Origin: Bradyrhizobium erythrophlei
Lineage (GTDB): Bacteria > Pseudomonadota > Alphaproteobacteria > Rhizobiales > Xanthobacteraceae
Direction: 5' to 3'
Length of the DNA: 64,000 nucleotides
Assembly: GCA_900129675.1 (NCBI GenBank)
Contig: FSRD01000001.1
Location: 5,693,501 to 5,757,500 of the forward strand
Part shown: piece after piece, positions 16,578 through 24,468 of the stretch
How the letters are laid out: each line of letters opens with the position of its first letter
Numbering within the stretch: position 1 is the stretch's first letter
The notes under the pieces: generated by a model
Databases searched by the model: none
Told to the model about the DNA's origin: nothing
The model's input: only the letters and a program-made list of their open reading frames with translations
Position numbers and translations under genes: made by a program

Positions 16578-17498
16578 ATGACTTACACGCAAGCGCTTCA
16601 GCAAGTTAAACCACGCGCCCTGAAAGCCTTCCTTTGGCCGGGACTGCTAATCGGGTCCGTGCTTGCGGCATACGTACCGACTGTTTTGAGCTTGATCGAC
16701 GGGCCGTGGCAGACCGAGCAGGAGGGCCATGGGCCGCTGATCATTGCTGCTTCTCTTTGGCTGGTTTGGCAGTCACGCGAAAGGCTGAGGGCTGTTCAGG
16801 CCTCGCCTGCGCCTGTTACTGGTTGGATCATCCTCACGTTTGGTCTTGTCTTGATGTTCCTGGCAAGAATCCAGCAGGGATTGCTGACCTTCGAAATGTT
16901 TTCCCTGATACCCGTTATCGTGGGTTGTGTCCTGCTTTCAGTGGGCTGGCCGACACTTCGCGTTCTAGCGTTCCCGATTTTCTTTTTGTTATTTGCTGTC
17001 CCTATGCCGGACTGGATAATTGACGCCGCAACGGTCCCGCTAAAAGTATTCATCTCGAACGTCGTTACTCACGTGCTCTATGCCGCAGGTTTTCCGGTCG
17101 CGCAAAATGGCGTCATGATTATGATCGGCTCGTACCAACTACTGGTAAAGGACGCCTGCTCCGGGATGAATTCGATCTTCGCCCTTTCTGCGATCGGGGT
17201 GTTTTATGCGTACGCCTTTCGCTGGGAAGAGAAGGTTCGTAGCCTAATTCTGCTGCTCTCGATTATCCCGATTACGATCCTGGCGAATTTCATCCGCGTG
17301 CTTACGTTGGTTTTGATTGCATATTATGGCGGGCCTGATCTGCTTGAGGGCGTGGTGCATGATATGACGGGTATAGGCCTGTTTGTTGTGGCGATTGTTC
17401 TCTTGTTCTTGCTGGACGGCTTCTTAGGTCTTTGTGGGATGGTGTTGAGAAAGATCCTACGACGAACTGCCGCGCCGGCGGTTGTGCGAGAGACCTGA
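16578..17498 (+). CDS. xrt: Exosortase (PEP-CTERM transpeptidase-like)
   Basis: 306 residues with about eight transmembrane helices. The three residues essential in the family are present: Cys194 in KDACSGMNS, Arg240 in ANFIRVL and His261 in VVHDMTG. GHGPLI near residues 50-55 is also typical. No C-terminal EpsI fusion is present. The enzyme would cleave the Pro-Glu-Pro sorting signal of exported proteins at the inner membrane and probably attach them to a glycolipid or polysaccharide. Six candidate substrates are encoded between 23.8 and 37.5 kb. The subtype cannot be fixed by eye. The EPS genes around it resemble XrtA loci, while the substrates carry the W-A variant of the signal. Confidence 0.92.
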   Translation: MTYTQALQQVKPRALKAFLWPGLLIGSVLAAYVPTVLSLIDGPWQTEQEGHGPLIIAASLWLVWQSRERLRAVQASPAPVTGWIILTFGLVLMFLARIQQGLLTFEMFSLIPVIVGCVLLSVGWPTLRVLAFPIFFLLFAVPMPDWIIDAATVPLKVFISNVVTHVLYAAGFPVAQNGVMIMIGSYQLLVKDACSGMNSIFALSAIGVFYAYAFRWEEKVRSLILLLSIIPITILANFIRVLTLVLIAYYGGPDLLEGVVHDMTGIGLFVVAIVLLFLLDGFLGLCGMVLRKILRRTAAPAVVRET

Positions 17499-17590: not shown

Positions 17591-18694
17591 TCAGTTCGCG
17601 ATCAGCAGTTCGAGCATCTTACGATCAAGCCAATGTCCGCGAAAATATTCGCGAGGAATGTCGGACCGGTCGTTGTCGAGGACGCCGAACGTCCCACGCA
17701 AGTTCCACATCGACCATCCCCAACCAGCTTCCTTCCAAAGGGCGAGCACATCGCCCATCCACGCGAGGCAGGCGTCATGTGGAGTCTTGTTGTAACAGCC
17801 CCATTCCCCGACATGGATCGGTACGCCTATTTTTATGAGGGGCTCCCACTTCGAGATCAGTTCCTGCCGAAGCTTTTCACGATTCCATTCTATGCCGTGA
17901 CGGTCGGTCATCGGCCAAGATGGCGGATCGGTTGATTCAAATTCGTTTGCAGGCACCCAGGTAGCGGTGTAGTGGCTAACCATCTTTGGCAGATACCCCC
18001 GGGTACTCTGCACGATGCCTTCACTGACTAGGCCCAAGACGGGAGTTTGGCCGATGTCTACGCCGTCCGCGAAAATAAGCCGATCGGGACTCTCTTCCCG
18101 GATAGCAGCAATGAGGTGCCGCGCGATCTCCACGTAACGCGATTGGTCTTTCATAAATGGTGGTTCATTTAGCAGATCGAAACTTAGCTGGCTGCTGGGT
18201 GCATCCTTGTACCGCCGTGCGAGATAGCGCCATTGAAAAACTGCCGCTTCCAGCGCTCGCTCCATTGAGTCGCGAGGGCTATCGAAAAGTTGAAAGGGCT
18301 CAAGCTCACGGCCGTTGACACAATATCCTGGGATACGATGCAGGCTGAGATTGATATGGATTCCATACTGTTGACCCAGTGAGATGGCTCGATCGAGCGG
18401 CTGCAAGGCCATCTCGTCAATGGTCATCCACTTGTTTTTGTCGGACCAAGCCCAGTAGGAGCATGGCAATCGAGCGAAATTGAATCCCCATTCAGCCATC
18501 CATTTGAAGTCCAACTCTTGATAGCGCTGATGGCGCTGGCCGCCGGCCAGTTCGATCAGGTTAAACCCTCGCCAGCGTGGAATGGTCGGCTGAGATCGGG
18601 AGGGGGCAGGCAGCGGTTGGGCGAATGAAGAACTGGTCACCAGGCCAGCCGCAATTGGCATCGATGCAAGAAAGTTTCGTCGATTGATGATCAT
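17591..18694 (-). CDS. Glycoside hydrolase family 5 (endoglucanase-like)
   Basis: A 367-residue protein. It begins MIINRRNFLASMPIAAG, a twin-arginine-like export signal (NRRNFLA), followed by a Pro-rich linker. The GH5 barrel shows the conserved acid/base glutamate in LLNEPP (Glu177) and the nucleophile in HVGEWG (Glu297), plus RGFNL and ARLPCSYW at the expected N-terminal strands. Glycanases are common in EPS loci, trimming or releasing the polymer. Convergent with the exosortase gene (93-bp gap). The substrate is beta-linked glycan by family; the exact polymer is unknown. Confidence 0.87.
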   Translation of the reverse strand: MIINRRNFLASMPIAAGLVTSSSFAQPLPAPSRSQPTIPRWRGFNLIELAGGQRHQRYQELDFKWMAEWGFNFARLPCSYWAWSDKNKWMTIDEMALQPLDRAISLGQQYGIHINLSLHRIPGYCVNGRELEPFQLFDSPRDSMERALEAAVFQWRYLARRYKDAPSSQLSFDLLNEPPFMKDQSRYVEIARHLIAAIREESPDRLIFADGVDIGQTPVLGLVSEGIVQSTRGYLPKMVSHYTATWVPANEFESTDPPSWPMTDRHGIEWNREKLRQELISKWEPLIKIGVPIHVGEWGCYNKTPHDACLAWMGDVLALWKEAGWGWSMWNLRGTFGVLDNDRSDIPREYFRGHWLDRKMLELLIAN

Positions 18695-18789: not shown

Positions 18790-18855
18790 ATGAATACAAA
18801 GTCTCAACAGGGGAATGTATTAGAAATGCGAAGGCCATGGGTTGACGAGCAATGA
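18790..18855 (+). CDS. Possible 21-aa leader ORF overlapping the phosphatase start
   Basis: ATG at 18790 opens a 21-codon frame ending in TGA at 18853-18855, which overlaps the ATG of the phosphatase gene (ATGA). Such overlaps often couple translation. No strong ribosome site is visible before the short ORF, so it may be incidental. Confidence 0.3.
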   Translation: MNTKSQQGNVLEMRRPWVDEQ

Positions 18856-19562
18856 CGTTGACATTTGCCATACCCGACATTCACGGACGCCTCGACCTCC
18901 TCGAGGCTGCTATCGAAAGGATAATCGAGCATTCGGAAAGCAGCCCCGCGACAATCGTTACTTTAGGCGACTATGTCGACCGTGGACCGGATAGTCGCCA
19001 AGTGATCGAACGCTTGATGGGATGGCACTCGGAAGAGCTGAGGCTCATAAATCTCAAGGGCAACCACGAAGCGATGATGTGGGAAGTCTGCAATAATTTT
19101 GCTGAGGTAGGCTGGTGGATCCAGAATGGTGGTGATCAGACGCTTATGTCCTACGGCCAACCTTCGCAGAACAATCTCAATATTGGGATTGTTCCTTTGG
19201 CGCATCTTCAATGGTTAGCCAATCTCCCGCTGATGCATGTTGATCAGCACAGGGTATTCGTGCACGCGGCCGTTGACCCGAAGATTCCGCTGGACCGGCA
19301 AACCGAACAAACCCTTCTCTGGAAGCGATATCCTGAGGGGTTCGATCTGGGCCACGACAACCGCCATGTCGTGCATGGACATCACGCAAATCCCGATGCG
19401 CCGATCGTCACCCGCGGCAAGACCAATCTTGACGGACTGGCATGGAAGACGGGGCGACTGGTGGTCGGCGTGTTCGAAGATGACCAACCTGGCGGAGCGT
19501 CGCAGTTTTTGGAGATTGTTGGTCCGGCGGCTACTCTTTTGGATCCGCAACATCAGCGTTGA
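18852..19562 (+). CDS. PPP-family serine/threonine phosphatase (metallophosphoesterase)
   Basis: 236 residues with all PPP signature blocks: PDIHG (Asp9, His11), GDYVDRG (residues 39-45) and GNHE (70-73), plus a later VHGHHA histidine motif. It resembles small bacterial ApaH/PrpA-like phosphatases. It may remove phosphate from proteins or dinucleotide polyphosphates; specificity is unclear. The last 32 bp overlap the convergent XRE gene. It stands at the boundary between the exosortase genes and a phage-like recombination module, and which of the two it belongs to is uncertain. Confidence 0.85.
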   Translation: MTLTFAIPDIHGRLDLLEAAIERIIEHSESSPATIVTLGDYVDRGPDSRQVIERLMGWHSEELRLINLKGNHEAMMWEVCNNFAEVGWWIQNGGDQTLMSYGQPSQNNLNIGIVPLAHLQWLANLPLMHVDQHRVFVHAAVDPKIPLDRQTEQTLLWKRYPEGFDLGHDNRHVVHGHHANPDAPIVTRGKTNLDGLAWKTGRLVVGVFEDDQPGGASQFLEIVGPAATLLDPQHQR

Positions 19563-19836
19563 GTGCTTTGGCTCCTGTTCTCAAGAAGACTCCGAAGCCC
19601 TTCCCCTTTTCAAAGACGAAGTCGACGCCGGCTTTCTGAAAGGTAACTAATACCGATTGAAGATTGGCCGCGGTCATCTGAACCGTCCCTGCAACGACCT
19701 CCGCGCGCCTGATTGTTGCCACGCCAAGCATAGATTCCCTCGCCAGATCCTCGGCGCTCCAGCCGATCAAGGCCCGCGCGGCGCGGATCTGTGCTCCGGT
19801 GATATTTTTAAGATCGTATGATCTATAGTTGACCAT
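19531..19836 (-). CDS. XRE-family helix-turn-helix regulator
   Basis: ATG 19836 is preferred over the longer frame from 19866. About 101 residues. The HTH is visible in ITGAQIRAARALIGWSAEDLARESMLGVATIRRAE, matching small rhizobial XRE proteins that start with TGAQIRAAR. A C-terminal part (ALQ-like segment, FQKAGVDFVFEKGKGFGVFLR) is typical of the same subfamily. It is divergent from the YqaJ-type exonuclease gene, with candidate palindromic sites between them, so it probably represses that operon in the style of a phage regulator. Its 3' end overlaps the convergent phosphatase gene by 32 bp. Confidence 0.8.
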   Translation of the reverse strand: MVNYRSYDLKNITGAQIRAARALIGWSAEDLARESMLGVATIRRAEVVAGTVQMTAANLQSVLVTFQKAGVDFVFEKGKGFGVFLRTGAKALNADVADPKE

Positions 19837-19859
19837 CGTGAAATTCTTTGATATGAAAA

Positions 19860-19873
19860 CGATCATAAGATCG
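19860..19873. promoter_or_regulatory. Candidate operator palindrome between XRE and exonuclease genes
   Basis: Perfect inverted repeat CGATC-N4-GATCG, 25 bp before the exonuclease start. A related GATC-N4-GATC element lies at 19812-19823, inside the first codons of the XRE gene. Position and symmetry suit autoregulation. This is an inference from pattern only. Confidence 0.4.
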
Positions 19874-19897
19874 ATTTCAAATTAAAGGGAGTTCGAT

Positions 19898-20755
19898 ATG
19901 TCAAATGATCTCAATCCGATTGAAACTGCAAGGTCATCGCCTAAACATATCAAGGCTAACCGCCGCCACTTCATCGGGGGCTCCGACGCCCGGATCATCA
20001 TGGGCAAAGACGAGAAGGCGCTGCAGCAGCTCTGGCATCAGAAACGCGGGGAGGCGGAGGGGCCCGACCTTTCGGCGGTGCTAATCGTCCAACTCGGATT
20101 AGTAACCGAGGACCTCAATCGAGGATGGTACGAGCGCAACTCGGGGCATCAGGTCACAGCCGTCCAGAAGCATGCCGTTCACAAGACGATCCCATGGATG
20201 GCTGCGACGCTCGACGGGCTGGTGCCGAGCATTGACGCCGTATTCGAGGCGAAGTTCATGCTGCCGTGGTCGTTTTCCGAAGAAGGAGCCGCGGAAAAGC
20301 ACGCCGCCCAGCTTCAGCACAACATGCTGGTGACCGGTACCAAGAGATCGGTGCTCTCGATTATCAACGGCGGCGGCAAATGGGTCGAAATCTCGGTCGA
20401 GGCCGACCCGATCTACCAGACCATCCTGATTGCGGCCGAGAAGGCGTTCTGGAGCGCCGTGCATACCGGCGAACCTCCCTCGCTGTTTGATTGCGAGCCG
20501 CCGCGGCCGCGCATCGAAGCGGTTCGGGTGGTCGATATGACCAGCTCGAATTCATGGGCTGAATTCGCCGGCCTCTTTCGGGAAACCCGGTCTGCGTTTC
20601 TGGACCACGAGCGGGCGAAGATCGAACTCAAAGGACTGATGCCGGAGGATGCCAAAGAGGCGATGGGGCACGGGATCCGCGCCAAGCGATCCAAGACCGG
20701 CGCGATTTCATTTGACGCCCTGGACGTGGAGGTTGGTCATGCATCGGTCCAGTGA
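19898..20755 (+). CDS. YqaJ-type viral recombinase/exonuclease
   Basis: 285 residues. The N-terminal half carries the PD-(D/E)XK nuclease signs of the YqaJ family: FIGGSDARIIMG near residue 27, AATLDGLV (Asp, about 108) and EAKF (Glu-x-Lys, about 119-121). A helical C-terminal region holds ERAKIELKGLM. The family supplies the 5'-3' exonuclease of phage recombination systems. A GAGTTCG stretch precedes ATG 19898. The next gene, an ERF annealing protein, overlaps its last 17 bp, forming the classical exonuclease plus annealing-protein pair. No other phage genes are nearby. Confidence 0.82.
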   Translation: MSNDLNPIETARSSPKHIKANRRHFIGGSDARIIMGKDEKALQQLWHQKRGEAEGPDLSAVLIVQLGLVTEDLNRGWYERNSGHQVTAVQKHAVHKTIPWMAATLDGLVPSIDAVFEAKFMLPWSFSEEGAAEKHAAQLQHNMLVTGTKRSVLSIINGGGKWVEISVEADPIYQTILIAAEKAFWSAVHTGEPPSLFDCEPPRPRIEAVRVVDMTSSNSWAEFAGLFRETRSAFLDHERAKIELKGLMPEDAKEAMGHGIRAKRSKTGAISFDALDVEVGHASVQ

Positions 20756-21968
20756 AACCGTAGCGGCGATCGCTACTGCCCTTGCCAAAGCGCAAATTGA
20801 ACTCTCAAACCCCGAGAAAAGCGCGGTCGGCTTGATTCCAAATCTAAGCCGAGGGGAGGGCGAGCGGACGTTCCGTTATGCACCGTTGTCCACGGGGCTG
20901 GAGTTGGTCAGAAAATCCCTGGGAGGGCACCAGATAGCGCTGCTGCAGACCACCGAAATCGACCGGCCCAGCGGAACGGTCAACCTGACGACAGTGCTGA
21001 TGCATACCTCTGGCGAATGGATCTCGTCGGATTGGCCGGTATGCCAGTTATCCGACGCAGCAATGCCGCGGCGGATGGGAGCAGCTCTAACATATGCCCG
21101 TCGCTATTCGTTGTTCGCTCTGGTCGGGATCGCAGGGGAGGACGACACGGATCTTGATGCAGCGGAGGCGACGGCCGCCACCAGCAAGATCAACGCTTCC
21201 CGGCTTGCACCGGTACAAATGCCGGCAAGACCGACCGGACAGGTAGTTTCCGCGAAACCGAACTTAACCATAGACCAGTCCGCGACGCAGCGGGAACATT
21301 TGCTCAGTCAAATCGCCAACTGGGCAAGCTTGGACGTTCTTCAGGGCGAGGCGATCAAAGTGCTGCGGGAAAAGAATTCGCTTCTGACCACGGACGCCAA
21401 AATGATTGAGGCTGAATTCGAAGCGAGATTGGCCGTCCTGGAAACTGAGTCCAACACCGCCTCATCGCCGGACGTCCAGCCGCCTCGGACTAACATCGAT
21501 GAAACAGCGACTAAGCCGCGCCAATCGCGCCGGCGACCGCAAAATGTCTCGACTGGCCCTTCGGATAAAAGACCGGCAGTGCCAGTTGTCCCCAACCAGC
21601 GCGTCCCCAAACTATCGCAGCAAAGAGAAATCGAACTGCGACGTTCGAAGATCGACAAGAGTCTGTTGGCTTTTGGTGAAATTCGACGTCTACGGGATAA
21701 GGCCCATTTGCGTTTCGTCGCCTCACAGCCGTGCCTGATCTGCGAGCGCACCCCGTCTGATCCCCACCACCTGCGCTTTGCCCAGCCCCGCGCCATGGGA
21801 CGAAAGACCAGCGATGAATTTGTTGTCCCACTATGCAGAATGCACCATCGGCAAAATCATCAAACGGGAGACGAGCTTTCGTGGTGGAAGACCACGGCTG
21901 CGGATCCGCTAAGGGTTGCTCGGGAGCTATGGGTTTCCAGCCGCGGCATCGTGGACCGTGCCTCTTGA
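20739..21968 (+). CDS. ERF single-strand annealing protein fused to HNH-like domain
   Basis: ATG 20739 follows GGAGG with 7-nt spacing, so it is better than the longer frame from 20649. 409 residues. The ERF domain occupies about 1-150 (TVAAIATALAKAQ, FRYAPLSTGLELVRKSL, GAALTYARRYSLFALVGIAGEDD). A low-complexity linker runs to about 310. The C-terminus has CLICERTPSDPHHLR and VVPLCRMHHRQNHQTGDE, a CxxC...HH...CxxHH arrangement of HNH/DUF968-like nucleases. ERF proteins anneal ssDNA in phage recombination; the attached nuclease-like domain might process joint molecules. Overlaps the convergent gene at 21927. Confidence 0.83.
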   Translation: MHRSSETVAAIATALAKAQIELSNPEKSAVGLIPNLSRGEGERTFRYAPLSTGLELVRKSLGGHQIALLQTTEIDRPSGTVNLTTVLMHTSGEWISSDWPVCQLSDAAMPRRMGAALTYARRYSLFALVGIAGEDDTDLDAAEATAATSKINASRLAPVQMPARPTGQVVSAKPNLTIDQSATQREHLLSQIANWASLDVLQGEAIKVLREKNSLLTTDAKMIEAEFEARLAVLETESNTASSPDVQPPRTNIDETATKPRQSRRRPQNVSTGPSDKRPAVPVVPNQRVPKLSQQREIELRRSKIDKSLLAFGEIRRLRDKAHLRFVASQPCLICERTPSDPHHLRFAQPRAMGRKTSDEFVVPLCRMHHRQNHQTGDELSWWKTTAADPLRVARELWVSSRGIVDRAS

Positions 21969-22463
21969 GAGCGTGGCTGCGGGCGCCTCTTTGATGCGTT
22001 TGGCTTGTAAGGCTTCTCGGGCCTTTTTAGCTTCCTTTGCCTTAGCTTTTTTAGCAGCTTTAGCCCTAGCTTCTTTCTCGGCTTCGTCTCTGGCCGCCAC
22101 GGCGCGATGGATTCTCAACATGCCTTCTGAAAAGGTCTCCGGCGGCGGTGCCAGCACTTGACTCGCTCGAGTATCAGCCAGGACATAGCGCTGTACCGCC
22201 TCATTCATTTCAAAAAAGCTGAGATCGAAGATCGATTCCCTATGTCGGACAGTCTGGGCGGTGACGATCGCGAGCGCGAGCTCCATCGCCTCCTTTTGCT
22301 TTTCGATGAGCATGATTTGCAACCCCGTGCGGGTGCCTTTCATTTCCAGATCGGAGTCGTTCCGCAACGTGCTGGTCCCAACGAGAAGACTGAGGCTGAT
22401 GAGACTGTCGCTATAGGCGTCCAGACATTTGATCGCTTCGCGGGTATCCATTTTCACCACCAT
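21927..22463 (-). CDS. Conserved-looking hypothetical with Ala/Lys-rich tail
   Basis: I do not recognise it. From ATG 22463 (GGAG just upstream) it has 178 residues. The first two thirds look globular and helical (MDTREAIKCLDAYSDSLISLSLLVG, QIMLIEKQKEAMELALAIVT). The end is a long Ala/Lys/Glu helix (KEARAKAAKKAKAKEAKK) that would be a strongly charged coiled or DNA-binding tail. Its last 42 bp overlap the end of the ERF gene on the other strand, which argues that the two have coexisted for some time. A longer frame to 22595 exists without a better start. Confidence 0.6.
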   Translation of the reverse strand: MVVKMDTREAIKCLDAYSDSLISLSLLVGTSTLRNDSDLEMKGTRTGLQIMLIEKQKEAMELALAIVTAQTVRHRESIFDLSFFEMNEAVQRYVLADTRASQVLAPPPETFSEGMLRIHRAVAARDEAEKEARAKAAKKAKAKEAKKAREALQAKRIKEAPAATLSRGTVHDAAAGNP

Positions 22464-22653
22464 TTGCTCCAGCCTACATTTACCGCGCAGGCGTTGGGCC
22501 GCCTGGCTTTGAAGACATAGGAGACTTTCGGCGCAAATGAAGCGCGGAGGTCCAAAAGATATCTGTGGATGTTTGTTTGCTATCTTGCTGCACATGAAGG
22601 TCTATGGACGCGAAAGCGATTCAGCTGACCCGATGCTTTCAAGGAGGACATCC

Positions 22654-23262
22654 GTGAGCGCTGCGACGACAGAAGTTTCGGTTTTCAAGCCGGCAAATGA
22701 ATTGAGCCAGATTTTTGCCATCCCTGCACTGGTTGGCTCCGAAAAGCTCGAGGACTATGAGAGATTCTTGGCGTCCGTCGTTTCGGCGATCAAGCCGACG
22801 GACGTCGTAGGTTGGCTGTTCATCAAGGATTACGTGGATTGGTCCTGGGAGATCCGGCGTGAGCGGATCATCAAGGCCGAGACGATCAAATACTACGAGA
22901 AGCAAGTCGTCGCCGAACTGATCAAATCGGAGTTTGCTCCCTCGGGTCAGTTCGAAGCGGCTTATTATCGCATCTTCAACGCCGGTGCCGACCTCGACCT
23001 TTGGGTAACCGATCCGAAATGTCGCGAGAACGTCGACAAAGGATTGGCCGCGAAGGGCTATGACGCCTCATACATCCTCGCCCAGGCTTACCTCCGGGGA
23101 GACCACGCGATTTCAGCGATCGATAAGAGGATCGCCGGCCACGAGCAGCGGCGCCTTGCAGCATTGAAGGAGGGGGGACTTTGGAGCGATCGCCTCGAGC
23201 GCAAACTGGTCCAAGTAACATCTGAGGTTATCGACGGCGTATTCACCGAGGCAGTGAATTAA
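22654..23262 (+). CDS. Hypothetical protein of the recombination-module region
   Basis: GTG 22654 follows AAGGAGG with ideal spacing, so the longer frame from 22537 is not used. 202 residues, soluble, no signal. Visible features: IPALVGSEKLEDYERFLASVV and VGWLFIKDYVDWSWEIRRERIIKAE, a mostly helical layout. I recall similar proteins annotated only as hypothetical in rhizobial genomes, often followed by a gene like the one at 23268. It ends 5 bp before that gene, so the two form an operon. Confidence 0.75.
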   Translation: MSAATTEVSVFKPANELSQIFAIPALVGSEKLEDYERFLASVVSAIKPTDVVGWLFIKDYVDWSWEIRRERIIKAETIKYYEKQVVAELIKSEFAPSGQFEAAYYRIFNAGADLDLWVTDPKCRENVDKGLAAKGYDASYILAQAYLRGDHAISAIDKRIAGHEQRRLAALKEGGLWSDRLERKLVQVTSEVIDGVFTEAVN

Positions 23263-23267
23263 CGCCC

Positions 23268-23690
23268 ATGGCCTCGGATCGACAAATCGCGGCTAACCGA
23301 AGCAATGCAAGAAAAAGTACCGGCCCGCGTTCGAAAAAGGGTCAGGAGGCTTCGAGTCGCAATGCCCGAAGGCATGGCTTGGCTATTGCCGTCGGATGCG
23401 ATCCCGCTTTGCAGGGGGAAATCGAGAAGCTCGCGAGACTGCTTTCAACGAGTGGCTCACAAGATGTCAGCGGACCTGCGCGCGAGGCAGCGGAGGCCGA
23501 ATTCGAGTTGTTGCGGATCCGCACGGTCCGGGCCTGGCTATTCCAGACCCTCTATTTCGCCAAAGCAAATGCGCCGGATGGCTTGGCCGAACTGAACGGC
23601 AAGCTCGGCAAACTTGAACGATACGAGCGCCGCGCTTTTTCCCGCCGGAAGAGCGCTTTGCGAGCCATGTCCCAAGCCGCCGCGATATAG
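23268..23690 (+). CDS. Small basic hypothetical (N-A-R-K-S-T-G-P-R motif)
   Basis: 140 residues starting 5 bp after the previous gene. It opens with IAANRSNARKSTGPRSKKGQ and then NARRHGLA. This basic N-terminus is widely repeated in small rhizobial and planctomycete proteins of unknown function, often near mobile DNA. A helical region follows (EAAEAEFELLRIRTVRAWLFQ). The N-terminus is reminiscent of transposon or phage-associated proteins that contact nucleic acid, which is an inference. Confidence 0.72.
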   Translation: MASDRQIAANRSNARKSTGPRSKKGQEASSRNARRHGLAIAVGCDPALQGEIEKLARLLSTSGSQDVSGPAREAAEAEFELLRIRTVRAWLFQTLYFAKANAPDGLAELNGKLGKLERYERRAFSRRKSALRAMSQAAAI

Positions 23691-23787: not shown

Positions 23788-24468
23788 ATGCGGCTCACTA
23801 TTGCTGTTGGAACGTTTATTTTAGCTATAGGTTTTGGCTCCGCTTCCGTAAAAGCAACCGTTCTCTATCAATCCATCCCCGACCTATCTGCTTCGCGCTT
23901 GGGCACGTTCTGTTCTAACTGTCCGGGGTTGGCGGACCAGCAGTCTGTCGGTCAAATCTTCTCCTTCGGCGTAAGCGCTACCGCGACGAGCCTTAGCTTT
24001 GTTGTTTCGAACGACTATGTTTGGCCAACACCCGTCACGGTCGATATCTACCAAGATGCAGTTGGGACGGTTGGAGCTAATGTCTATAGGCAAACGTTTA
24101 CATCATATGTCTCGGACACTCCGACGGCTAATTTTACCGACGTTGTTTCCGTAAGCTTGGGCAGCGGAGTAACGCTTGGTCCGGGAAGCTATATTGTCTT
24201 TTTGACGAATTCCACTACAGGGCTCGCCATCGCTACTTTTGATGGTCTGCCTGGCAATGCCATCTATAATTACGCCAGCACCTTTCCGGACTTGACGGGA
24301 AATCCTTACGCTTCCCTGACAGAACAGGATATTGGCGTTTTGTTCTCGGGCGTATCAGCTGTGCCGGAGGCTTCTACTTGGGCAATGCTTCTTCTCGGGT
24401 TTGCTGGCATCGCCTTCATGGCATATCGACGGAAGCTGAAGCCCGCGCTGACTTACCATTTGATCTAA
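23788..24468 (+). CDS. PEP-CTERM protein 1 (PEA variant)
   Basis: 226 residues. Signal peptide about 1-23 (ending SVKA-TV). A beta-rich, Thr/Ser-rich extracellular domain follows, with FCSNCPGLADQQSVGQIFSF. The C-terminal sorting signal is VPEASTWA (about 192-199), then hydrophobic MLLLGFAGIAFMAY and basic RRK. Pro-Glu-Ala replaces Pro-Glu-Pro, as in PEP2 at 30554. The domain recalls the choice-of-anchor proteins that follow the same signal. Expected substrate of the exosortase at 16578, exported and then cleaved. A short hairpin (CCCG...CGGG) sits just before the ribosome site. Confidence 0.88.
   Translation: MRLTIAVGTFILAIGFGSASVKATVLYQSIPDLSASRLGTFCSNCPGLADQQSVGQIFSFGVSATATSLSFVVSNDYVWPTPVTVDIYQDAVGTVGANVYRQTFTSYVSDTPTANFTDVVSVSLGSGVTLGPGSYIVFLTNSTTGLAIATFDGLPGNAIYNYASTFPDLTGNPYASLTEQDIGVLFSGVSAVPEASTWAMLLLGFAGIAFMAYRRKLKPALTYHLI

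Follow-up and report, generated by a model that had tools for sequence, protein, structure and literature searches.

What is a phage-type exonuclease and annealing module doing inside an exopolysaccharide locus of Bradyrhizobium erythrophlei? Phages and mobile elements carry exonuclease/annealase modules such as lambda Red and RecET, and mosaic surface-polysaccharide loci are usually put down to RecA-type recombination and chance. The first-pass annotation of the 64,000-nt stretch of DNA analysed here (the window) had described an XRE regulator divergent from a YqaJ-type exonuclease and an ERF annealing protein, and had suggested a domesticated recombination or DNA-uptake system. Our best reading is that Nitrobacteraceae chromosomes harbour a persisting, mobile exonuclease/annealase/HNH cassette of phage origin under repressor control, which often lies next to polysaccharide loci. 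Among the records listed in searches of the open-access literature, no account of this cassette turned up other than the papers cited here.

Organization of the cassette in the exosortase V locus

The ORF map and the profile matches bore out the described arrangement: positions 19531-21968 hold an XRE gene divergent from an overlapping, intact yqaJ-erf pair, and the module does part exosortase from PEP-CTERM genes (Table 1). The cassette probably extends to 23690.

Table 1. Features of the cassette and of its flanks, in window coordinates
Feature	Position	Strand	Remarks
Exosortase V (host context)	16578..17498	+	NCBIfam NF035943, E 6e-97
Metallophosphatase (host context), left edge of insertion	18852..19562	+	conserved in locus, 18 relatives
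XRE regulator, C-protein-like	19531..19866	-	likely start 19836; solved-structure and PADLOC matches
Candidate operator AGATCGTATGATCT	19811..19824		just within likely XRE gene
Candidate operator CGATCATAAGATCG	19860..19873		divergent promoter region
YqaJ / lambda-exonuclease-family (RecE-like) exonuclease	19898..20755	+	PF09588, phrog_434
ERF single-strand annealing protein with C-terminal HNH (DUF968-type) domain	20739..21968	+	PF04404, PF06147
ORF of doubtful gene status	21927..22595	-	no match or homologue
Helical protein, family c4	22537..23262	+	commonest next gene after erf
Short protein, family c14	23268..23690	+	recurs at module copies
PEP-CTERM protein (host context), right of insertion	23788..24468	+	PF07589, E 1.6e-5

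The cassette is an insertion into the exosortase V exopolysaccharide locus, a point that the first-pass annotation had overlooked. At its left edge, nucleotide similarity to relatives stops between 19474 and 19532, and in the stretch read no module fragment was found at this site in the relatives carrying the phosphatase gene (0/18) or the exosortase gene (0/21). The phosphatase, whose gene overlaps that of the XRE regulator at the 3' ends, also fits a NinI-like phage phosphatase family (phrog_246, E 7.8e-43); the same gene is conserved in the exosortase locus of 18 relatives. Between the two junction stretches, the exact junctions being uncertain, the longest direct repeat measured 9 bp, with no duplicated target, matching end repeat of 10 bp or att-type repeat found, and no inverted repeat exceeded 8 bp. 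As had been claimed, integrase and virion families were absent from the ORFs scanned, namely 16 window ORFs with PHROGs (six of the cassette and 10 flanking ones) and 19 with NCBIfam, which lends no support to a full prophage at this site. The transposase or relaxase and the terminal repeats of a transposon or ICE were likewise lacking in the six cassette ORFs and the junction stretches, respectively.

YqaJ matched PF09588 (E 1.5e-11, over the cut-off) and phrog_434 (E 3.4e-38), and its profile matched the solved exonuclease 3syy (E 5.5e-5). Residues D106, E117 and K119, which we take to be catalytic, are invariant across 13 aligned rows, and the protein is predicted to be a PD-(D/E)XK (YqaJ/lambda-exo) nuclease with conserved active-site residues. 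The yqaJ and erf genes overlap by 17 nt, the start of erf (ATG 20739) having been picked from relatives, whereas the mechanical ORF begins at 20649. The product of erf comprises an ERF domain (PF04404, E 5.8e-18, over the cut-off) and a C-terminal HNH/DUF968 domain (PF06147, E 1.8e-13, residues 315-376) that was missing from the first-pass annotation. The DUF968 profile aligned only over its HNH part (positions 84-145 of 171); C332, C335, H343, H344, C366, H369 and H370 are invariant across 11 aligned rows. Gp77 (9y6u) was matched both by the ERF profile (E 1.7e-20) and by the predicted ERF model (E 5.8e-5). The model of the whole protein (mean pLDDT 74) exhibits an ERF core, a helical middle, a low-confidence linker and an HNH part. 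Profile and model place the protein encoded next to the exonuclease in a known superfamily of single-strand annealing proteins.

With regard to the regulator, the match to Pfam HTH_3 was weak (E 0.0024, under the family cut-off); the ORF was also matched by the solved controller protein 4yba (E 3.7e-9) and by the PADLOC model 'Control_protein' (E 2.1e-11). Its true start is probably the second ATG, which would give a divergent gap of 61 nt to yqaJ. As the gene caller misses short XRE genes, homologues were counted by tblastn: one lies divergently upstream of yqaJ in 16/61 copies, and in 94/186 copies of a larger, redundant set limited to those with at least 600 nt upstream. The 'broken' XRE calls in our survey of 60 loci mainly reflect an 80% coverage rule. 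Candidate operator palindromes had been announced, and two were located. Across 86 distinct XRE-yqaJ gaps, the density of palindromes whose arms measure at least 6 is 0.50 per 100 bp, compared with 0.148 in single-base shuffles; AGATCGTATGATCT and CGATCATAAGATCG, with arms of just 5 bp, lie under the threshold of this count.

Two further family genes, likewise missing from the first-pass annotation, follow 3' of erf. The first, c4, is the commonest gene next after erf: c4-family ORFs were found in 26/60 relatives' loci and in 0/40 random loci, and tblastn placed c4 downstream of the module in 36/61 copies. Its predicted model is helical (pLDDT 84) and gave no fold match in PDB or BFVD at E<=0.001. 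The second, c14, lies antisense upstream of 37 of the 61 copies and downstream of 2, and was found in 0/40 random loci. Six cassette ORFs were counted between 19531 and 23690; the one opposite the 3' end of erf, with no family over the curated cut-off and no homologue in the loci searched (0 matches), is doubtful as a real gene.

Copies in relatives and rival readings

When the module genes were sought at other sites in relatives, as had been advised, ERF-HNH matches were found in 76 and YqaJ matches in 70 of the 146 Bradyrhizobium genomes, with several copies per genome at differing sites. Given that the copies are patchy and multi-site and that the insertion is absent from all of the 18 syntenic relatives (18/18), a domesticated host gene set with a fixed, vertically inherited position is not supported, contrary to this part of the earlier suggestion. 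Nor did any observation favour a role in DNA uptake, no competence family being named among the ORFs scanned with other aims. What stands is its phage-type character, in the form of intact, selected chromosomal genes around which virion genes were not found among the ORFs scanned.

The module could be what remains of prophages that entered the island, their early recombination genes outlasting the others by chance. The core genes do belong to phage families, a ParB-methyltransferase, DUF5681 or terminase gene occurs in 28/60 loci (20 kb read), and certain copies are disrupted, among them one of the present genome, in which 61% of a relative's YqaJ was recovered and ERF is absent (the 60 loci take in two of this genome, this broken copy and an ordinary pair discussed below). 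Excerpts of PMC8093625 interpret chromosomal annealase genes in Firmicutes likewise, as including unannotated prophages and remnants. Nevertheless, all 28 loci are of non-XRE forms, packaging-type genes being found in 0/15 loci of the XRE form, which appears basal on the YqaJ tree (the root is weak). The yqaJ and erf genes are each intact in 51/60 loci, counts inflated by the choice of loci mostly from good matches, whereas an intact terL was found in 8 loci, a broken one in 3 and none in 49. Median dN/dS, for pairs limited to dS 0.05-1, was 0.171 for YqaJ (1142 pairs), 0.117 for the ERF part (1885) and 0.109 for the HNH part (449), values which argue against decay; this purifying selection may partly stem from time in phages. 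For 140 of the 604 flank ORFs of the 60 loci, no capsid, portal or tail family stood among the best 25 of the 56 matching PHROGs, although terminase did; the remaining 31 match at most two members each. None of the 148 matching phage records covered 80% of ERF-HNH. Full phage genes beside the module in relatives, which the first-pass annotation would have read as simple prophage decay, were thus not encountered as far as scanned, and we consider decay rather unlikely.

A mobile or satellite-like element is a slightly less probable alternative. Here yqaJ, erf-HNH, c4 and c14 would form, with ParB-methyltransferase, DUF5681 and terminase, one unit packaged or moved by a helper phage, the islands serving as landing sites or cargo. 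The multiple copies at differing sites fit this, as do the recurrent order ParB-methyltransferase, DUF5681, TerL, yqaJ, erf in the other form, the finding that 15 of the 20 close IMG/VR loci that were mapped carry at least one of these three packaging-type genes, and a serine recombinase in 10/60 loci against 1/40 random loci. The copy in the window, however, showed neither integrase, duplicated target nor 10-bp matching end repeat, and its form lacks packaging genes; terminase, which a PICI-like satellite would carry along with an integration module but no virion genes of its own, was found in the relatives' other form and is intact in just 8/60 loci. Lastly, anti-phage or DNA-end defence, in which HNH and exonuclease, governed by a C-protein-like regulator, would be directed against DNA entering the cell, is very improbable, for although the regulator resembles restriction-modification controllers, PADLOC models match neither YqaJ, ERF-HNH nor three other ORFs, and yqaJ adjoining erf is a recombination arrangement.

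Association with polysaccharide loci

What is new here is the recurrent closeness of module copies to polysaccharide loci. Polysaccharide genes lie within 8 kb of 32/60 module loci and of 0/40 random loci; the random loci draw on 20 genomes and the module loci on more, and within those 20 genomes 15/32 module loci were positive. The initiating sugar transferase PF02397 was found within 50 kb of 13/33 merged module sites, with 1.5 expected, the 39 module positions being YqaJ matches on main chromosomes, fragments included, minus the diverged pair G000:C4:6480910. A generic island effect was rejected: integrases showed no such pull, with 1/55 merged sites, among the matches listed, within 50 kb of PF02397 and 2.35 expected (61 rows hand-picked among the matches listed, leaving out XerC/XerD-like rows, dense-cluster repeats and minor contigs).

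On the YqaJ tree of 48 copies, the polysaccharide label changes 15 times, against a shuffled mean of 15.1. This scatter speaks against a single ancestral insertion, so that one inherited event does not account for the link; it may also come from turnover of flanking genes or from the 8-kb cut. Grouping by shared flanks gave 8 positive groups out of 22 (window included), and independence is limited by the 37 of 61 loci whose flank similarity places them in one group. Outside Bradyrhizobium, only 4/17 loci of at least 11 kb had a polysaccharide match, and the nearest PF02397 gene to the copy in the window is 84 kb away.

Proposed role and comparison with known systems

We propose that an autonomous, phage-derived recombination cassette of the annealing type sits in the exosortase V locus, would move with islands and may speed exchange, an explanation with about an even chance of being correct. 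The C-protein-like XRE protein would bind the palindromes and keep both itself and the yqaJ-erf operon down. Upon relief, YqaJ would resect DNA ends 5' to 3'. Independently of RecA, ERF would then pair the strands so exposed with partners of short or diverged sequence, and branched intermediates could be trimmed or cut by the HNH domain tethered to it. The cassette itself would travel by recombination of the host's polysaccharide islands, possibly speeding the exchange of island genes. The sequence comparisons suggest, and do not prove, that it helps polysaccharide regions exchange genes. A more specific proposal, tentative at best, is that this regulator-controlled cassette raises exchange over short or diverged homology at linked surface-polysaccharide loci, coat genes being reshuffled by an ex-phage engine. 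If true, a switch-controlled phage-type annealing engine beside polysaccharide loci would offer a direct genetic handle on exchange. Our reading also argues that chromosomal 'orphan' phage recombination genes are not always debris.

The same genome carries an ordinary phage-type pair (L064, G000:C4, about 6.480 Mb) with yqaJ followed by erf, as in the window. Its YqaJ is 23% identical to that of the window, its ERF has no HNH match, and it adjoins primase, helicase, methyltransferase and junction-resolvase-like genes. Restriction-modification systems have C-protein controllers (4yba) that, like the regulator of the cassette, are small, belong to the XRE family and have palindromes in the promoter region; unlike in those systems, none of the six ORFs of the cassette was recognized as a restriction or modification gene. 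Erf-DUF968 fusions and Orf-HNH (DUF968) proteins have the HNH motif in common with the ERF of the window, but the latter aligns to the HNH part of DUF968 only, and the accounts of these proteins give, in the excerpts available, no chromosomal or polysaccharide setting. Finally, the two-protein operon logic of a lambda-exonuclease-family nuclease and a single-strand annealing protein is that of lambda Red and RecET (PMC8093625, in excerpt) and of the SXT module, their mobile-element counterpart (PMC3118119, in excerpt). In contrast to all three, the ERF of the window bears an HNH domain, and the unit is chromosomal, has its own divergent regulator and recurs near polysaccharide loci.

Insertion of the module into the exosortase locus

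The module in the window is an insertion between the exosortase V gene set and the PEP-CTERM genes, and the gene order bears out the first-pass annotation, which had it separating the two. When the loci around the same exosortase were compared in 21 relatives, 18 (14 + 4) were found to carry the phosphatase gene after the exosortase, as in the window; what comes next there is another member of the locus, namely a small ORF, a GH5 copy, the glycosyltransferase or the gene beside it. Fragments of xre, yqaJ, erf and the two downstream genes, c4 and c14, were found in none of the 21 loci (E 1e-3). Nucleotide similarity to these relatives breaks off where the phosphatase gene ends, and direct repeats shared by the two junction stretches are no longer than 9 bp. 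The GH5 gene of the window has matches in only one of the 18 syntenic relatives (G177), on both sides of the phosphatase. The phosphatase itself has a match to phrog_246 (E 7.8e-43), the family of lambda NinI-like phage phosphatases; it is nevertheless conserved in this exosortase locus, and 248 of 265 same-genus genomes contain matches to it.

Features of the module, its insertion edge and related copies in the same 11.7-Mb genome
Feature	Coordinates	Strand	Remark
GH5 (cellulase-family) gene	window 17591-18694		between exosortase and phosphatase
Phosphatase gene	window 18852-19562		at insertion edge
End of similarity to relatives	window 19474-19532		falls within this interval
XRE gene	window 19531-19866	-	regulator
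yqaJ	window 19898-20755	+	exonuclease
erf	window 20739-21968	+	C-terminal HNH domain
ORF			doubtful status
c4	window 22537-23262	+	uncharacterized helical-protein family
c14	window 23268-23690	+	uncharacterized short-protein family
Broken yqaJ	L063:9067-9638		broken relative at another site
yqaJ-erf pair	L064:9054-10696		distant, ordinary phage type

The second domain of the ERF protein, overlooked in the first-pass annotation, is a DUF968-type HNH nuclease domain. Both nucleases, YqaJ and HNH, retain the residues that are invariant among relatives. The predicted structure of the ERF protein (mean pLDDT 74) has an ERF core modelled with confidence, helices in its middle part, a linker of low confidence and an HNH part; a match to the core is the solved protein Gp77. 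This closest solved ERF relative (9y6u) was, according to its entry title, solved in complex with RAZR, and ERF proteins may be recognized by another protein. Short c14-type proteins beginning like MASDRQIAANRSNARKSTGP recur; in 37 of 61 copies they are encoded upstream of yqaJ in antisense orientation. With regard to the other copies in the genome, the broken yqaJ lies beside the conserved core8/core9 genes, a site that holds module copies in G125 (L070), G076 (L081) and other genomes, and the phage-type pair is accompanied by primase, helicase, methyltransferase and junction-resolvase-like genes.

The nearest relatives of the XRE protein are restriction-modification controller proteins. In the relatives' set, 16 of 61 copies have an XRE homologue in divergent orientation upstream of yqaJ; in a larger, redundant set this holds for 94 of the 186 copies whose upstream sequence extends to 600 nt or more. 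Palindromes with arms of at least 6 occur at 0.50 per 100 bp in 86 distinct XRE-yqaJ gaps, compared with 0.148 in single-base shuffles. As to the operator palindromes proposed earlier, the window has two candidate GATC-N4-GATC sites 49 bp apart, whose arms of 5 fall under the threshold of the count. Repression may be exerted from these two sites.

Spread, forms and maintenance of the family

Within the genus, ERF-HNH matches were found in 76 and YqaJ matches in 70 of 146 genomes. Family members are also present in records from Afipia, Nitrobacter and other taxa, mostly Hyphomicrobiales (best 80 of 212 confirmed). Two ERF-HNH loci (L289, L347) are MAG contigs labelled Bryobacterales and Acidobacteriaceae, which could reflect interphylum transfer or wrongly binned contigs of Alphaproteobacteria. 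Among 60 loci read around module copies, two of them from the window's own genome, an XRE homologue is present in 15, none of which has packaging-type genes (ParB-methyltransferase, DUF5681, terminase). At least one packaging-type gene is present in 28, and 17 have neither. At its fuller extent, the order runs ParB-methyltransferase, DUF5681, terminase, yqaJ, erf-HNH, c4 and then sugar-nucleotide genes (e.g. L100, L102, L116). In a YqaJ tree of 48 copies with a weakly placed root, the XRE form appears basal, with a derived group of 33 made up of the other form; the window copy clusters with a Bradyrhizobium copy (L066) and Afipia copies. The recurring run of ParB-N6/N4-methyltransferase, DUF5681 and TerL (phrog_38) adjoins the module in L100, L102, L107, L113, L115 and L116, where no virion genes were seen; in L107 and L113 it follows a core GlcNAc-2-epimerase/AMP-binding pair, with one ORF between. 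This run could be a packaging-gene remnant or a satellite of its own.

As far as tested, the module is not simple debris. Taken singly, yqaJ and erf are each intact in 51 of the 60 loci, which were picked mostly from good matches. For pairs with dS of 0.05-1, median dN/dS is 0.171 for YqaJ (1142 pairs), 0.117 for the ERF part (1885 pairs) and 0.109 for the HNH part (449 pairs). Among the best 25 of 56 PHROG families matched by 140 of the 604 ORFs in the flanks are terminase, methyltransferases, transposases and sugar epimerases, but no capsid, portal or tail family. None of 148 matching phage records covers at least 80% of ERF-HNH, and the best phage YqaJ, from Bradyrhizobium phage BDU-MI-1, is 40% identical. 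Of 22 mapped IMG/VR loci, 20 are close relatives (contigs of 5.7 to 55.6 kb); ParB-methyltransferase, DUF5681 or terminase occurs in 15 of these and epimerases in 2, counts that cover labelled ORFs only and hence speak neither for nor against virions.

Polysaccharide genes around the module

When the loci were probed with 26 O-antigen and colanic-acid proteins of E. coli, at least one match lay within 8 kb of the module in 32 of 60 loci, compared with none of 40 random loci, which came from 20 genomes; restricted to these genomes, the module count is 15/32. Pfam matches in 140 flank ORFs, taken from module flanks only, include 17 NAD-dependent epimerases and 16 GDP-mannose dehydratases (some proteins may be counted twice), as well as four acyltransferases. 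An initiating sugar transferase (PF02397) is no more than 50 kb away from 13 of the 33 merged module sites mapped in 20 complete or near-complete genomes, against 1.5 expected from random placement; for tyrosine integrases, an island marker, the count is 1 of 55 (2.35 expected). Exosortase and YqaJ matches occur together in 10 of 146 genomes. They lie within 45 kb of each other in three (G000, to which the window belongs, G053 and G076) and on different contigs in G001 and G113; of the other genomes, the two measured, G114 and G125, have them approximately 365 and 219 kb apart.

Two counts speak against the link: 8 of 22 shared-flank groups are positive, as are 4 of 17 loci from outside Bradyrhizobium. 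On the YqaJ tree the polysaccharide label is as scattered as under shuffling (15 changes; mean of 15.1 for shuffled labels). A single inherited event does not account for the link, but neighbour turnover or the 8-kb cut could also be a source of this scatter. The module could raise the exchange of the polysaccharide genes beside it or could simply travel with them; the data are compatible with both.

Proposed action and known systems

The individual parts are observed; judging from their families, the module most likely acts under an XRE switch over all steps, in which YqaJ would digest DNA ends, ERF would anneal the exposed strand and HNH would trim or cut the joint. An open-access library yielded nothing on YqaJ, ERF and exopolysaccharide together, or on the ERF family with YqaJ and Bradyrhizobium. 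The Erf-DUF968 fusion has already been published (PMC4118853), and the exonuclease and annealase of SXT are the subject of PMC3118119.
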